Shown in pieces: positions 12,577-27,903 of a DNA stretch of 35,341 nt. Position 1 is the stretch's first letter. Every line of letters starts with the position of its first letter. Where the stretch lies: positions 1 through 35,341 of the IMG/VR virus record IMGVR_UViG_3300025870_000037; one strand, given 5' to 3'. Position numbers and translations under genes: made by a program. Origin of the DNA: a virus. The notes beneath the pieces were generated by a model. That model did not search any database, had not been told where the DNA came from, and saw nothing but the letters and a program-made list of their open reading frames with translations.

Positions 12577-12764
12577 TGGACAGACAACCAGTGTTTGAGT
12601 TTATACACTATCCAGAGTTCGGAGAAGCAGAGAGAGTATGTCCAGCAGTCAAGATAGTCTATACGATATATAGTGACGGGCAAACAGTACATGACATGAG
12701 AGAGCAGTTCAATTACTTTTTAAAAGCCTGCTCCTACCACATACCACTAGATGAGGAAGAATAA
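12576..12764 (+). CDS. Hypothetical small protein (62 aa)
   Basis: The ATG overlaps the stop of the DUF3310 gene (TGATG), and GAGGAG lies 8-9 bases upstream. The sequence starts MDRQPVFEFIHYPEFGE, contains a strand-like VKIVYTIYSDGQT and ends in LDEEE. No recognised family. It overlaps the next gene by 14 bases. Confidence 0.6.
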   Translation: MDRQPVFEFIHYPEFGEAERVCPAVKIVYTIYSDGQTVHDMREQFNYFLKACSYHIPLDEEE

Positions 12765-12924
12765 AAGAATACCACTGAAGGGTGGCGCAGAGTGGGATGC
12801 TCTTACTAACGCTAAAAAACTTTATTGCTATTTAAAAAAGTCTGGAGTTGCTAAGAGCATTAAACGAGGTTACAACAAACGATTTAGGCGAGAGGGTAAG
12901 CGTGAAACAAAAGACATTAGCTAA
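12751..12924 (+). CDS. Small, very basic protein (57 aa)
   Basis: ATG at 12751 opens a frame starting MRKNKRIPLKGGAEWDAL and running to KRETKDIS. About a third of the residues are Lys or Arg. It has a helical middle (LTNAKKLYCYLKKSG) and a basic C-terminal half. Nucleic-acid binding is likely on charge alone. No family recognised. The gene overlaps both neighbours. Confidence 0.55.
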   Translation: MRKNKRIPLKGGAEWDALTNAKKLYCYLKKSGVAKSIKRGYNKRFRREGKRETKDIS

Positions 12925-13084
12925 GTGGTGGCGGATATGGGCCAAAAGTTTAGGTGAAAAGGTGGGCGAGACAGATAAGCAAGCTAATACTGTTGCTGGT
13001 ATTAGGACGGTTTGGTGGCTTACCCACATGATTACATGCATCTTTATTATTGCAGGCAACGTAAAGTCACTGGGTCTTTTATAA
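12902..13084 (+). CDS. Predicted single-pass membrane protein (60 aa), GTG start
   Basis: GTG at 12902, preceded by GAGAGGG, is preferred over the ATG at 12848, which lies deep in the previous gene and has no ribosome site. The protein has a basic amphipathic N-terminal half (MKQKTLAKWWRIWAKSL) and one membrane helix near residues ~37-53 (TVWWLTHMITCIFIIAG). It could be a small inner-membrane effector or holin-like product. The start choice is moderately certain. Confidence 0.5.
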   Translation: MKQKTLAKWWRIWAKSLGEKVGETDKQANTVAGIRTVWWLTHMITCIFIIAGNVKSLGLL

Positions 13085-13233
13085 TGGATAGAAAAGAAGA
13101 AAGGCGGGATAGGTTTGACCGCAAAAAGAAATTTAAAAAATTAACGAGGTCTTCTAAAGCTAAGACCGAACGCAAAAAAAATAAAAGGAAAGGCGATGAC
13201 AGTACAATTTATGGACATGCTGTGGAGCATTAA
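13084..13233 (+). CDS. Small, extremely basic protein (49 aa)
   Basis: The start MDRKEERRDRFDRKKK at 13084 shares a base with the previous stop. More than 40% of the residues are Lys or Arg, with no hydrophobic core, so it is probably disordered until it binds nucleic acid. The ORF can be read further upstream to 13012, but that would duplicate the coding space of the membrane gene. No family recognised. Confidence 0.5.
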   Translation: MDRKEERRDRFDRKKKFKKLTRSSKAKTERKKNKRKGDDSTIYGHAVEH

Positions 13234-15388: not shown

Positions 15389-15610
15389 ATGAAAGCAAAG
15401 GAAGCTAATATACTATCATTTAAAATTATTGTCAATCATTCGGGGGCCATCCTAACTGAGATGGGTGGTATCCCCGAAGACCGACTACATGAAGTGTTTA
15501 AGGGTGATGAGCTGATGCTCGTGCGTAAGATTATCCGTGACGCTAAACCCAAACTAGAGAAGATGCATGACTATCTTGAGCGTGAGCTAACAGCCTTCTC
15601 TACCACTTAG
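15389..15610 (+). CDS. Hypothetical protein (73 aa), last rightward gene
   Basis: AGGAG lies about 8 bases before the ATG. The sequence starts MKAKEANILSFKIIVNHSGA and the C-terminal half is helical (VRKIIRDAKPKLEKMHDYLERELTAF). No recognised family. Its last 11 bases overlap the end of the leftward gene at 15600. It is probably co-transcribed with the RNR, 9 bases upstream. Confidence 0.7.
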   Translation: MKAKEANILSFKIIVNHSGAILTEMGGIPEDRLHEVFKGDELMLVRKIIRDAKPKLEKMHDYLERELTAFSTT

Positions 15611-15893
15611 ATTTATTAGCCCAATATGCCGCAGACATTTTGCCCTTGGCAATGTTCTTAGCGTGTCGGGCTTTAAAACTTGCACGTTTCTTCTTCATCT
15701 TTTCTGACTCTCCGGCCTTGGGCTTACCTGCTGTACTGGCTCCCTGCTCTCCGTATCGGATTGTCTTGATTTTATCGCCTTCTTTTGCCACAACAATATG
15801 GCTTTTCTTCGGGTGATTCGGTGTACGCTTTGGTTTATTATATCCGCTTACTCCTGCTCTGGCTAAACGTGGGTCTTTCTTTTTAGCACCCAT
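15600..15893 (-). CDS. Small basic protein typical of marine phages (97 aa)
   Basis: The protein opens MGAKKKDPRLARAGVSGYNKPKR (the first ~23 residues) and ends SAAYWANKSKW. Lys, Arg and Ala dominate. From memory, proteins with this opening and the GEQGASTAGKPKAGESEKMK middle recur in many marine phage genomes near structural or lysis genes. No function is established. A DNA-packing or virion-associated role is inferred from charge. AAGG about 10 bases upstream supports the start. Its stop lies inside the opposing gene. Confidence 0.75.
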   Translation of the reverse strand: MGAKKKDPRLARAGVSGYNKPKRTPNHPKKSHIVVAKEGDKIKTIRYGEQGASTAGKPKAGESEKMKKKRASFKARHAKNIAKGKMSAAYWANKSKW

Positions 15894-16216
15894 TACTTAT
15901 ACACCTTCCCGCCTTGGCTAAACTTTTTATCTAAAGCAAAAATGCTTTTAAATTTTTCTGCGCTTTTTATTCCAGCAGTTTTAGCAGTTTGAGCTGCTTG
16001 CTTAGCAGCATGAGCAGCAGTATTTCTTTTTGGAACAGGCTTAACTTTTTCACCTATAGTGGGGGCTGAAATATTAAGCTTAGATGGTTTGCTCTTAGCC
16101 ATTCCAGCAGGCTCACCTGTAATTATAGTTTTAGAATTTTTATAAGAATCAGGCTTTCCATAAGGAACAGTTGTTCTAACTCTATCTGTATTTTTAAAAA
16201 TTGTTTTATTTGGCAT
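15893..16216 (-). CDS. Small basic Ala/Lys-rich protein (107 aa)
   Basis: The start MPNKTIFKNTDRVR at 16216 is supported by AGGA 9 bases before it; the longer open frame to 16324 would overlap the upstream gene. The middle is Lys/Ser/Thr-rich and the segment AAHAAKQAAQTAKTAGIK is a likely alanine-rich helix, like histone H1-type tails. No family recognised. It overlaps its downstream neighbour by one base. Confidence 0.65.
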   Translation of the reverse strand: MPNKTIFKNTDRVRTTVPYGKPDSYKNSKTIITGEPAGMAKSKPSKLNISAPTIGEKVKPVPKRNTAAHAAKQAAQTAKTAGIKSAEKFKSIFALDKKFSQGGKVYK

Positions 16217-16220
16217 TGTT

Positions 16221-16475
16221 TTATTTCCTATAGGTTTTAGTTTTCTTTGCAATCTTTTTGGGCTGAGCGCTATGCTGCTTACCTTTCTTAGTGTCGGCTC
16301 TCTTCTTCTTTGTAGTTGCCGCATATTCCTTAGAGCTTAAAGCCTGCCTAGCTTTCTTAGGCAGATAGCGCTCCCCAGTTGCTTTCTTTCCTTGGGTACT
16401 AGGCTTACCTGACTTAGTACCCCACTCTTCTTTAGTCCATTTCTTTAAAGACTTTTGTGATTTTTTAAGTGCCAT
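16221..16475 (-). CDS. Small basic protein, DUF5872-like (84 aa)
   Basis: The sequence MALKKSQKSLKKWTKEEWGT, then the GERYLPKKARQALSSKEYAATT segment, matches the pattern I associate with DUF5872, a family of short basic proteins found in large viruses, phages and some bacteria. The label is from memory. It is rich in Lys, with a Lys/Thr tail (KKIAKKTKTYRK). Function unknown; DNA association is likely from charge. Confidence 0.65.
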   Translation of the reverse strand: MALKKSQKSLKKWTKEEWGTKSGKPSTQGKKATGERYLPKKARQALSSKEYAATTKKKRADTKKGKQHSAQPKKIAKKTKTYRK

Positions 16476-16618
16476 TACTTATGTACCTTCTGCACGGGAA
16501 AGTTAGCTTCCAGACTTGCTCCTTTATGCTTAACAAACTTTCCGGTATGCTTCATTAGCTTAAACGTACCGTTCTTTTGTTTCATCCAATGATGTCCTGC
16601 TGGTGCTTTTACTTTCAT
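16475..16618 (-). CDS. Small basic protein (47 aa)
   Basis: This frame starts MKVKAPAGHHWMKQKNGTFK and ends FPVQKVHK. GGGGGAGG lies 6 bases before the ATG, the best ribosome site in this cluster. It is rich in Lys and His, with no recognised motif beyond the short W-basic pattern. It overlaps the upstream gene by 4 bases and abuts the downstream one. Confidence 0.65.
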   Translation of the reverse strand: MKVKAPAGHHWMKQKNGTFKLMKHTGKFVKHKGASLEANFPVQKVHK

Positions 16619-16800
16619 TTGTAACCTCCCCCTTTAGCTTTGTATTCCTTCGCAAGCATCTGAGCCTTACGTGCTGACCACTGACCTGCCTTACCACCCT
16701 TAGTGCCTGCTTTAATTCTGTTAAACAGATTCTTTCGCATAGTAGGCTTGGTATAGTTACCTGCTTTGTTTACTGTTGATTTTTTTTTAGATGCTGGCAT
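16615..16800 (-). CDS. Small basic protein widely seen in marine phages (61 aa)
   Basis: The sequence MPASKKKSTVNKAGNYTKPT leads into QWSARKAQMLAKEYKAKGGGY. I recall near-identical small proteins in many marine phages, with no function assigned. It is strongly positively charged, with Gly-rich hinges. Position among other basic proteins and next to lysis genes suggests a virion or DNA-compaction role. AAGG-like bases precede the start. Confidence 0.7.
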   Translation of the reverse strand: MPASKKKSTVNKAGNYTKPTMRKNLFNRIKAGTKGGKAGQWSARKAQMLAKEYKAKGGGYK

Positions 16801-16805
16801 AAGAT

Positions 16806-17144
16806 TTACCTTTTAAAGTAGTTCTTGCTATCCATGTCTTGTATATTTTTGTATGAAACAAGACCCCCTTTAGATTTTCGGCCTCTTAAAATATTCTTTT
16901 GTTCGGCATCTCTATGTATTGAACCTTTTATAGTTGAGTCTCCCTTTTTATTTGGGCCTACTTTATTTGAAGTTCCCTCTGCTGGGCCTTTAATAGAGCT
17001 TTTAAAGTGTTGGGGTATTGATTTACCTGTGATAACCTTTGAAGCTAGGTTCGCAATTCCAACCGGAGTTGGTTTTAAAGCTGTAGTTATTGCCCCAACT
17101 ACAGGACTATTTGCAAGCTGTGAAATATTTTTAAATTTAGACAT
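16806..17144 (-). CDS. Hypothetical basic protein (112 aa)
   Basis: The N-terminal 45 residues (MSKFKNISQLANSPVVGAIT...) look like an amphipathic to mildly hydrophobic helix. The remainder is Lys/Gly/Ser-rich and probably flexible. No recognised family. It lies one base downstream of the holin gene's end, so it belongs to the same leftward transcript. Confidence 0.65.
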   Translation of the reverse strand: MSKFKNISQLANSPVVGAITTALKPTPVGIANLASKVITGKSIPQHFKSSIKGPAEGTSNKVGPNKKGDSTIKGSIHRDAEQKNILRGRKSKGGLVSYKNIQDMDSKNYFKR

Positions 17145-17145
17145 T

Positions 17146-17550
17146 TTATTTTTCCCTCGAAACTTTTTGAATTTTTTCTACAGAACGCATAGCCCCTAGA
17201 CCTAGCATGCCCATCAACACAGGCATCATTTCACCAGTCGGTATTAGAGGGACGACAACTTCTGATTCCAGAAGCTCTAAAATCATGTTAGTAATTGGAA
17301 TAGTAATAAAATTCCCGGCCATTCCAAATACGCAAACCCACCCGACTGCTGGCCGCCAACCAGCAACAAACAAACTTTTGTGCGCTGCTTCAGCTTGGTT
17401 TACTTCAATCTGGCCCTTAGCAAGTTCTTGTGCGTGTTTTTCTGCCATAGTGCTAAGCTCAAACGCAATAGCATTCTTCTTATCTTTATCTTCTATGAAC
17501 TTATCTAACAGTCCAGTAACCGGCCCAATCAATGAAGTTAATATAGTCAT
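17146..17550 (-). CDS. Holin, 3-TM (GTA-holin) type
   Basis: This 134-residue protein has a hydrophobic start, then a charged helix (DKDKKNAIAFELSTMAEKHAQELAKGQ). Next come SLFVAGWRPAVGWVCVFGMA, a second hydrophobic stretch (GNFITIPITNMI) and a third (MPVLMGMLGLGAMRSVEK). The AGWRPAVGWVC signature and the closing GLGAMRSVEKIQ are typical of the holin family first described in gene transfer agents. It would open the inner membrane for lysis. The M15 peptidase gene lies 9 bases upstream, making a lysis pair. Confidence 0.8.
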   Translation of the reverse strand: MTILTSLIGPVTGLLDKFIEDKDKKNAIAFELSTMAEKHAQELAKGQIEVNQAEAAHKSLFVAGWRPAVGWVCVFGMAGNFITIPITNMILELLESEVVVPLIPTGEMMPVLMGMLGLGAMRSVEKIQKVSREK

Positions 17551-17559
17551 CTCAGTTCC

Positions 17560-17925
17560 TCAGTAACACCACATCACAGGAGCTTTGTCAGCTCCACAAA
17601 TCCTGCTATCCACATGGATGAAAGTACGAGCGACTCCAATACCATTAAATCCCATCTTAATAGCTTCTTCCACAATCTTGTATCTCTGATAACCATTTGC
17701 CGCTTTAATGTCGGCTGCAATACCTTGGGCATGTTTTCCTGCTTTCTCCTTACGTTTTTCAATGGAGTGGCTGGGACTTCTGTAACCACTTGTTATAATA
17801 AACGGGAAGCCACACGCCTCCCGCAGTTCGTCAAGACGGTGTATAAAGTCCCTTGACATTTCGTTTTCGCCAGTTTCTTGGCAATTAAAGTCTTCTAGTT
17901 TAAAGTATTTAAATTCTGCGCTCAT
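17560..17925 (-). CDS. M15 family peptidase, probable endolysin
   Basis: This 121-residue zinc peptidase resembles the M15A (D-Ala-D-Ala carboxypeptidase / VanY-like) domain. SGYRSPSHS is followed by KHAQGIAADI (H65, D72) and FIHVD (H104, D106), giving the metal-binding His-Asp-His set. It probably cleaves peptide cross-links in peptidoglycan at lysis. There is no signal peptide, so it would need the holin next door to reach the wall. The start overlaps the end of the giant virion gene by 4 bases (ATGA). Confidence 0.85.
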   Translation of the reverse strand: MSAEFKYFKLEDFNCQETGENEMSRDFIHRLDELREACGFPFIITSGYRSPSHSIEKRKEKAGKHAQGIAADIKAANGYQRYKIVEEAIKMGFNGIGVARTFIHVDSRICGADKAPVMWCY

Positions 17926-26101: not shown

Positions 26102-26680
26102 TTACTGTCCTTCAGGTTGTGCCATTAGGCTAGGTTGTTCTGGAACTTCGCTTACTTCTTCTGTTACTTCTTCTTTAACTGTAGGCTCAAGAAGACTAGG
26201 AAGATTTTTCATTTCTGTAGCCATGTCTTCAGTAATAAAACCTTGTGGAATCATGGAGTTTCTAAGTTCTTCTAATTTGCCTTTTTCCATTTCAACGCCG
26301 AAGATGTCGCCTTCTTCTTCATCGTTGTCAATCTTAATGTCTAAGTCTAAACGCTCAGCAAGTGCAATAAGCATATAAGCTAAAGGCTCAGCAAGCATCA
26401 TCATTAGGTCAGGATTAAACTTGCCTTGTTGAAACTGGTCAAATAATAAAACTTGTACAATGCTCATTATTGGAACACCTTTAGATATTCCAGTCATTAA
26501 AGCTACATAAGTTTCATCTTCAGTTACAAAGTCCCACATATACATACTAGCTTCGTGTACGTTAGTAAACTCTGGAGGTCTTTCATACGGAGCAGGATTT
26601 TCCGGGTCTGTAGTAAGAGACTGGCCCGGAATAGGTCTGTTCATTTTAGACACTTCTTGCATATATACTTCTTCTTCCAT
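26102..26680 (-). CDS. Putative virion-associated protein (192 aa)
   Basis: GGAGG 9 bases upstream supports the ATG at 26680. Internal Met codons lead to MNRPIPGQSLTTDPENPAPY, the sequence at which related marine phage proteins (from memory) usually begin. The core (VALMTGISKGVPIMSIVQVLL...FQQGKFNPDLMMMLAEPLAYMLI) is helical and partly hydrophobic. The C-terminus is acidic and Pro/Glu-rich. It lies between two structural genes; function unknown. Its start overlaps the stop of the 407-aa gene. Confidence 0.7.
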   Translation of the reverse strand: MEEEVYMQEVSKMNRPIPGQSLTTDPENPAPYERPPEFTNVHEASMYMWDFVTEDETYVALMTGISKGVPIMSIVQVLLFDQFQQGKFNPDLMMMLAEPLAYMLIALAERLDLDIKIDNDEEEGDIFGVEMEKGKLEELRNSMIPQGFITEDMATEMKNLPSLLEPTVKEEVTEEVSEVPEQPSLMAQPEGQ

Positions 26681-27903
26681 TATGCTGAACCTCCAATTCC
26701 TCTAGCCATCGTTTGTGTATAGAAATTAGCGCCAGCTCCAAAGGGTGCCAAGTTATAAAAATCAGTACCCGCAAGCTGAACTTGCATGGCTCTGTCGTTA
26801 ATTTCTGGAGAGCCATAAGTTCCTGCTGGGGCTGTATCAAACTGAGCAACAGCGCCGTAGTACGCTTTAGCACCTTCAGGCTTAGCTTCTAAACCTATGT
26901 TTTGAAATAGTCGCTGTTTGCCTAGCGCTACCATGTCGTCTGGCATGCCAGCTACTTGTTCGCTAAGGTAGTCTCTACCTTCTTCAAATACGGCTTCACC
27001 TAAAGGTCTGTCGTCAAGAAACTCTTTATATTTTGTTGAAGTATAGTCTGTAGCTTTCTCTAACAGACTTTGTTGTTTTTCAAATGTAGGCTTATCAATT
27101 TGTATGCCACCTGACTCAGCAACCATTTGCTTTCCTGTTCCGCTTACATCAAAAGCGCTTGAATCAGGAAACTTAGACGCTTGTTCTTGCATTGCATTAG
27201 TCTTGCTCTCAACATAATCGGATTTAGTTATTTCAGATGTTGTTGAGCTAGAGACATCTGAAGATTTAAAGCGCTCATCTATTGAATCAGGAAACTTAGA
27301 CGCTTGTTCCTGCATTGCTTTAGTTTTACTCTCAACATAATCGGATTTAGTTATTTTAGCCTGAGCTTTTTTAGCATCTAAAGCAGCCTGTTGAGACGCA
27401 GTAGGCATTCTGCCGTTAATAGCGTTTTCAAAATTAGTCATAATATTTTTAGAGTTTTCTAATACAGAATCTTGAGTAGCGTTCCAAGCAGACTCAAAGC
27501 TTTTACTAGTAATATCAGTGCTTATCCCCATTTGATTTAATGCAGCCCCACTAAACTCTCTTATAAAAGTAGTGACACCGTCAGTCACAGTCTTGAACGC
27601 AGAGTGTCCTGCTTTTGCAAAGCTTCCGCCTGCCTCAAGAACTTTACCTGCGGCTTGAGCAATCCTTCCGCCTTGAGCTAAAGCGCCTGTAACACCTCTA
27701 AATGTTTGTCCAACTACGTTACCTATTCCCGAAAACAAGTTACCCATCATGGCACCTACAGGAGTAAACATAAGAGCCAACTGGCCTACAATGCCTATCT
27801 TGCCCATAAACTTGCCAATCTTTTTAAAGGCAGACTTAATGCCCTTGCCAATGCTTTTAAAACCTTTCTTAACTTTTTTAAATACTTTTTTAAAAAATCC
27901 CAT
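26680..27903 (-). CDS. Membrane-active virion protein with internal duplication (407 aa)
   Basis: The N-terminus is an amphipathic Lys/Phe-rich helix (MGFFKKVFKKVKKGFKSIGK). A hydrophobic Gly-rich stretch (IVGQLALMFTPVGAMMGNLF, then GIGNVVGQTF) follows. This pattern suits a protein that inserts into or disrupts membranes during DNA ejection. Residues ~183-207 and ~224-248 are near-identical copies of ITKSDYVESKT(K/N)AMQEQASKF. The rest is unremarkable. No named family. It is flanked by other large virion-type genes in the same direction. Confidence 0.65.
   Translation of the reverse strand: MGFFKKVFKKVKKGFKSIGKGIKSAFKKIGKFMGKIGIVGQLALMFTPVGAMMGNLFSGIGNVVGQTFRGVTGALAQGGRIAQAAGKVLEAGGSFAKAGHSAFKTVTDGVTTFIREFSGAALNQMGISTDITSKSFESAWNATQDSVLENSKNIMTNFENAINGRMPTASQQAALDAKKAQAKITKSDYVESKTKAMQEQASKFPDSIDERFKSSDVSSSTTSEITKSDYVESKTNAMQEQASKFPDSSAFDVSGTGKQMVAESGGIQIDKPTFEKQQSLLEKATDYTSTKYKEFLDDRPLGEAVFEEGRDYLSEQVAGMPDDMVALGKQRLFQNIGLEAKPEGAKAYYGAVAQFDTAPAGTYGSPEINDRAMQVQLAGTDFYNLAPFGAGANFYTQTMARGIGGSA
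27161..27357 (-). repeat. In-frame 74-bp direct duplication, two copies
   Basis: Bases 27161-27234 and 27284-27357 are nearly identical, differing at a handful of positions, and are offset by 123 bp (41 codons). The duplicated block encodes about 24 residues of the 407-aa virion protein. The high DNA identity suggests a recent event or ongoing copy exchange. Confidence 0.85.

Follow-up and report, generated by a model that had tools for sequence, protein, structure and literature searches.

A core trio among six small basic proteins that close a phage late operon, and its candidate place inside the phage head

What is the function of six consecutive small, strongly basic proteins encoded last in a phage late operon, and do they belong together? 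The question arose from a sequence-only reading of a single virus record (35,341 bases, a podovirus-like fragment; "the window" below is this whole stretch of DNA), which proposed that the six could condense DNA in the capsid or act on host chromatin after ejection, as one histone-like set.

Layout, coding status and charge of the six genes

Replication genes (primase-helicase, DNA polymerase and class II ribonucleotide reductase) occupy the plus strand up to 15610, and the late genes fill the minus strand between 35324 and 15600, closing in the order endolysin, holin, P6, P5, P4, P3, P2, P1. The M15 peptidase endolysin (17560-17925) and the holin (GTA_holin_3TM; 17146-17550) are followed by P6 (16806-17144, 112 aa), P5 (16615-16800, 61 aa), P4 (16475-16618, 47 aa), P3 (16221-16475, 84 aa), P2 (15893-16216, 107 aa) and P1 (15600-15893, 97 aa), all on the minus strand; the six frames are thus consecutive in 15600-17144, exactly as first read. 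P1 is the last gene of the late arm and ends 11 bases within a convergent early-arm gene on the plus strand (15389-15610, 73 aa, phrog_27180), which bears out the placement of the six at the end of the late operon. P5 and P4 overlap by 4 bases, P4 and P3 by 1 base, and P2 and P1 by 1 base, and these overlapping or near-touching starts and stops resemble those of a coupled operon. Scans for terminators and promoters gave chance-level counts (6 found versus 6.0 and 4 versus 3.6, respectively).

The start of the 107-aa P2 frame is an internal ATG (position 16216), and the alignments of two relatives begin at the same methionine; the longest frame at this site, of 143 aa, would run into P3. Measured against relatives, dN/dS was 0.04-0.06 for P1, 0.04-0.08 for P3, 0-0.08 for P4, 0.01-0.06 for P5, 0.16-0.19 for P6 and about 0.5 for P2 (no ratio is given for one P1 pair, in which dS was saturated). 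These values ruled out artefactual or non-coding ORFs for the six.

All six proteins are very basic, as had been noted (pI 10.4-10.8, net charge +9 to +23), and lack cysteine. A pI of at least 10 was found in just 2 of the 44 other tabulated window proteins, and when the labels of these 50 proteins were shuffled 200,000 times, a run of at least six basic ones came up 13 times. The description of nearly all of them as rich in Lys, Arg and Ala was loose for P2 and P6, in which Lys plus Arg make up 21% and 19%, respectively, and Ala 6% in P6. Two further small, very basic ORFs lie in the early arm (window 12751-12924, pI 10.6; window 13012-13233, pI 10.2), and window 26680-27903 encodes a late protein of 407 aa with a Lys/Phe/Gly-rich, amphipathic-looking N terminus and no confident family.

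A core trio and its optional inserts

At least three of the six had been taken for recurrent marine phage proteins, and P1, P3 and P5 proved to be such. Full-length PHROG matches were obtained for P1 (phrog_7595, E 1.6e-42), P3 (phrog_14910, E 1.2e-36) and P5 (phrog_17747, E 2.3e-37); all three families are annotated as function unknown and are not linked to one another in PHROGs. P2, P4 and P6 had zero matches in the PHROGs profile search, and none of the six ORFs matched any Pfam family at E ≤ 1. Confirmed relatives in IMG/VR number at least 599 for P1, at least 570 for P3 and at least 598 for P5, with 2 for P2 and 3 for P6. Close relatives of the window retain the order P5-P3-P1, with P4, P2 and P6 variably present. 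Because distribution, retained order and dN/dS split the six ORFs into two classes, the locus is, by sequence comparison, a core trio of P5, P3 and P1 with optional inserts. P2 is a narrow, weakly constrained variable insert, P6 is narrow, and P4 is optional and strongly conserved wherever it is found; all three would be passengers of the trio locus. A single set of six was ruled out, P2 and P6 being narrow and close relatives lacking P2, P4 or P6.

Co-occurrence was counted within 3 kb, with repeats removed, at loci flanked by no less than 2 kb of sequence on either side; 36, 36, 32 and 19 loci fell short of this and were dropped. The IMG/VR loci were the best 80 matches per scan, and the counts speak for near relatives rather than for every carrier; repeats were removed in this count alone, and other locus counts may include contigs from several scans. 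P3 was present at 43 of 44 P5-scan loci and P5 at 43 of 43 P3-scan loci, with P1 at 25 and 31 of these, respectively, on the same strand throughout. P1-scan loci carried P3 in 19/43 and P5 in 19/43, with the pair absent from 24/43, and at the P1 loci of MAGs each was present in 5/36. In co-occurrence, a check proposed at the outset, P5 and P3 are nearly always together and P1 is attached more loosely; the rest are optional or narrow.

P5 and P3 form a single ORF at 23 loci (197 P5 ORFs extracted, repeats included) and, with the P3 part judged by eye, apparently in S-EIV1 as well. P3 and P1 share an ORF at locus L143, and at L476 a 241-aa ORF comprises phrog_7595 (residues 3-87), phrog_17747 (120-164) and phrog_14910 (167-240), that is, P1-P5-P3. 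Since P1, P5 and P3 are fused in relatives, the usual fusion argument suggests that they act together, and the idea of a unit holds for these three and fails for P2, P4 and P6. Cross-hits among the Lys-rich queries were ruled out, as overlaps between the best P1, P3 and P5 matches across all loci numbered just 4 pairs.

Several neighbors and variants of the trio were recorded. In HMO-2011 (L087:6258-8619), the P5-like gene and the P3 gene are separated by a gene for a methanesulfonate monooxygenase alpha subunit. Two larger proteins, of 454 aa (L152:5761-7125) and 415 aa (L136:6410-7657), begin with P3, and the former has weak tape-measure matches. DUF6321 (PF19846) proteins are basic, adjoin P5/P3 in HTVC033P and MEP401 and contain an R-x-SF-x-AR stretch as in P1; at L260:5092-5343 and L259:4696-5001 such proteins adjoin P5/P3 in phages where P1 was not detected, and HMO-2011 gp69 gave a sub-threshold match of 15.8 bits to the family. 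Judged by eye, DUF6321 resembled a P1 homologue, but profile comparison did not support this (hhalign probability 2% over 16 columns, and no profile match for the window P1). DUF5872 was rejected as the Pfam family of P3 (no match in a Pfam search).

Across 76 P1 sequences, residues N19, V34, G48, W91 and W97 are invariant. Bacterial P1 matches (58 loci, every record titled MAG or bin) are consistent with stray phage contigs. Siovirus phages match P1 and have no match to P3 or P5; in Roseobacter phage SIO1 the P1 gene, at L250:3962-4216, is unannotated.

Folds, fusions and leaders of P1

The P1 model, built with 76 sequences (pLDDT 86, pTM 0.75), has a helix at 8-13, a beta hairpin at 30-49 and helices at 64-82 and 88-95. 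It matched nothing in the PDB (best E 1.6; 0/171 chains at Z ≥ 2) and gave ten matches in BFVD at E ≤ 1e-3; just past this threshold were an XkdF-named protein, a ChaB-named protein and ICP1 ORF125. A giant-virus protein in BFVD, Tunisvirus V9SE36, also matched the fold (24% identity over 88 columns, E 5.9e-3). The P5-P3 model, built with 18 sequences (pLDDT 73, pTM 0.40), has both P5 helices well predicted and a link region below 50, and gave no PDB match at E ≤ 0.001. HU, H-NS and histones were matched by none of the six ORFs in Pfam (E ≤ 1) and by neither the P1 nor the P5-P3 model among PDB folds, and the histone-like label is not upheld in the sense of family. Literature searches found no paper naming DUF6321, phrog_7595, 14910 or 17747, or "ChaB" together with "XkdF"; papers using other wording could escape them.

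In relatives, the P1 module is joined to head proteins. CL131 ORF012 contains a portal domain (60-419), a P1-like stretch (about 530-610), InPase (631-752) and MuF (991-1103), and LC-MS/MS of purified CL131 particles is reported to have identified 23 structural proteins, including this portal protein (PMC6293099). At L493, a portal domain (25-383) is followed by P1 at the C terminus (586-665). In CRP-6 gp55, P1 (20-93) precedes an XkdF protease domain (108-228); among the best 80 matches to gp55, P1 and protease lie in one open segment in 79 and a homologue of the CRP-6 capsid protein lies downstream in 63. ICP1 gp125 has the protease first (36-160) and P1 second (184-261), and two reports refer to it as a predicted maturation protease (PMC9040626, PMC7567579); the annotation of this gene (ORF125, L380:5709-6545) does not mention the C-terminal P1 module. 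P1-like stretches occur in portal-MuF proteins such as CL131 ORF012 and in phrog_220 ("minor head protein and DNA pilot"), which are large multidomain head proteins, whereas the window P1 is free-standing. The XkdF/Peptidase_S78_2 proteases (CRP-6 gp55, ICP1 gp125) carry the module at the N or C terminus and have only this accessory module in common with the window P1, which has no protease domain. P1 is also found beside head genes: in the siphocyanophage KBS-S-2A it is flanked by genes for a MuF protein and scaffold, with a similar order in MED4-184, and in CRP-603, CRP-345 and MEP401 the trio genes lie closely upstream of terminase genes.

A leader of the T4 type was surveyed at 310 P1 loci with a readable core (repeats included), of which eight were flagged by the leader rule. 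Six carry an MKTFKQLKEE-type leader immediately before P1, with F4, L/F/Y7 and E10 in 6/6; at L322 the leader lies 120 residues upstream of P1 in the same ORF, and the leader at L323 was rejected because it does not fit on inspection. For T4, residues 4 and 7 of the leader are described as serving targeting and residues 8 and 10 processing (PMC9026906), and the N terminus of ipII and ipIII is MKTYQEFIAE. Leader-type starts were found in 31/132 genes of the eight flagged loci (P1 included) versus 20/5138 in the others. The prohead protease PF03420 was present on 2 of the 5 virus records with a flagged P1 that were searched (G006 and G007 of G003-G007). At L325 and L343, PF03420 and Gp23 share the record with the leader-bearing P1; neither is on the records of L322 and L324 or in the MAG of L273, and for L267 and L272 both are present at the level of the whole MAG.

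Genes near the leader-bearing P1 at L272:2939-6651 and L267:4110-7463 start with a like leader, and two of the L272 neighbors have matches, one to an HD phosphohydrolase family and one, a weak match, to an ADP-ribosyltransferase domain. To judge from their N termini, these genes likely encode a battery of head-internal, ejected proteins of marine T4-like phages.

The closest parallel is with T4 IPI, IPII and IPIII, proteins of the head core that are ejected and, like P1, small and Lys-rich. Their leader of about ten residues is described as giving entry to the prohead core and being removed later (PMC7697877), and the leader of P1 relatives fits the T4 capsid-targeting rule. The window P1, however, has no leader and is much more basic, the likeness being one of leader and composition, and, unlike the T4 proteins, the P1 module is also found fused to portal and protease.

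Role of the trio

The reading that we favor, with moderate confidence, places P5, P3 and P1 inside the head, in analogy to the T4 internal proteins. The three would be made late, enclosed in the procapsid at assembly, and stay with the packaged DNA, possibly being ejected alongside it. P1 would be a small, folded module with a helix at the N terminus, a beta hairpin and two helices at the C terminus, which may enter the procapsid within the portal protein, within the head-maturation protease or behind a T4-type leader, and in the window phage as a free, very basic protein. P5 and P3 would be basic helical modules, tightly linked as a pair, and partners of P1. By analogy with T4 the trio probably contacts DNA, and the high charge of the free forms would most likely let it sit on the packaged genome.

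The capsid-interior location suggested earlier gains support for P1 from independent head-linked contexts elsewhere and for P5 and P3 by association. For the window phage this location is extrapolated, because its P1 has neither a T4-type N-terminal capsid-targeting leader (about 10 residues) nor a fusion to another domain (no Peptidase_S78_2 in Pfam), and no head genes were recognized on the 35,341-base window. From the genes, their conservation and linkage, and the fusions and leaders of relatives, we infer presence in the virion, DNA contact and ejection for this phage; the literature searched contained neither a report of free P1, P3 or P5 in a virion nor DNA-binding results for the free proteins. 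Counted against the head-internal reading are the P1 loci without the pair (24/43 in the P1 scan, and Siovirus phages), the S-EIV1 P5-P3 ORF, which lies close to a primase gene and far from P1, the copies that adjoin lysis genes, the leader at L343, which P1 alone bears, and the weak basicity of fused P1 modules.

This last point bears on what the charge is for. The conserved residues are retained in the P1 modules that are fused to head proteins, but most of the charge is gone, the net charge being +1 in ICP1, +5 in CL131 and +12 in CRP-6. Because these modules are far less basic, charge is not common to the P1 fold, and neither high charge nor DNA contact is inherent in it. A purely electrostatic "histone" is thereby weakened as a mechanism, which gives some room to a protein-binding role in the procapsid. 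Such a role, the main alternative in our view though a rather unlikely one, would make P1 a procapsid assembly module that binds portal, scaffold or coat, assisted by P5-P3, with virion retention or DNA contact unneeded and the basicity of free forms aiding solubility or scaffold contact. The portal and protease fusions, the near-neutral ICP1 module and the adjacency of P1 to MuF and scaffold genes would suit it, but the separate targeting leader on P1 in T4-like contigs is cargo-like, and every free form is strongly basic (net charge of at least +11 per 100 aa in all 199 P1, 185 P3 and 197 P5 ORFs).

A charge-driven, histone- or protamine-like effect of all six proteins together, whether they condense the DNA in the capsid or act on host chromatin, appears improbable. 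Extreme basicity and late position speak for it, as does the report that lysines of T4 head internal proteins touch DNA phosphates (PMC3012670), but constraint on P1 residues goes far beyond charge, the less basic fused modules retain the fold, P2 and P6 are narrow and less constrained, and HU, H-NS and histone families gave no match. Late non-virion proteins that work in the cell, for example in lysis timing or on ribosomes or RNA, are likewise improbable; the holin and endolysin neighbors in the window, the lysozyme genes adjoining copies in S-EIV1, CRP-810 and S-CRES1 and the capacity of basic proteins to bind RNA are set against the head-linked fusions and leaders of relatives and the genes closely upstream of terminase in MEP401, CRP-603 and CRP-345.

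The favored head-internal reading can be extended, speculatively and with little confidence, to P1 as a portable capsid-interior module of podo-, sipho- and myovirus-like phages, perhaps also of giant viruses, that uses any available route, with P1-P5-P3 as an ejected minimal capsid chromatin acting on a conserved host target. P1, P3 and P5 are unannotated proteins that recur in marine phages, with at least 570 to at least 599 confirmed IMG/VR relatives each. A link to the head interior would give the phrog_7595, 14910 and 17747 families their first testable role and would indicate which small basic ORFs virion proteomics should seek, and P1 would be a case of one module entering the procapsid by several routes in unrelated phages.
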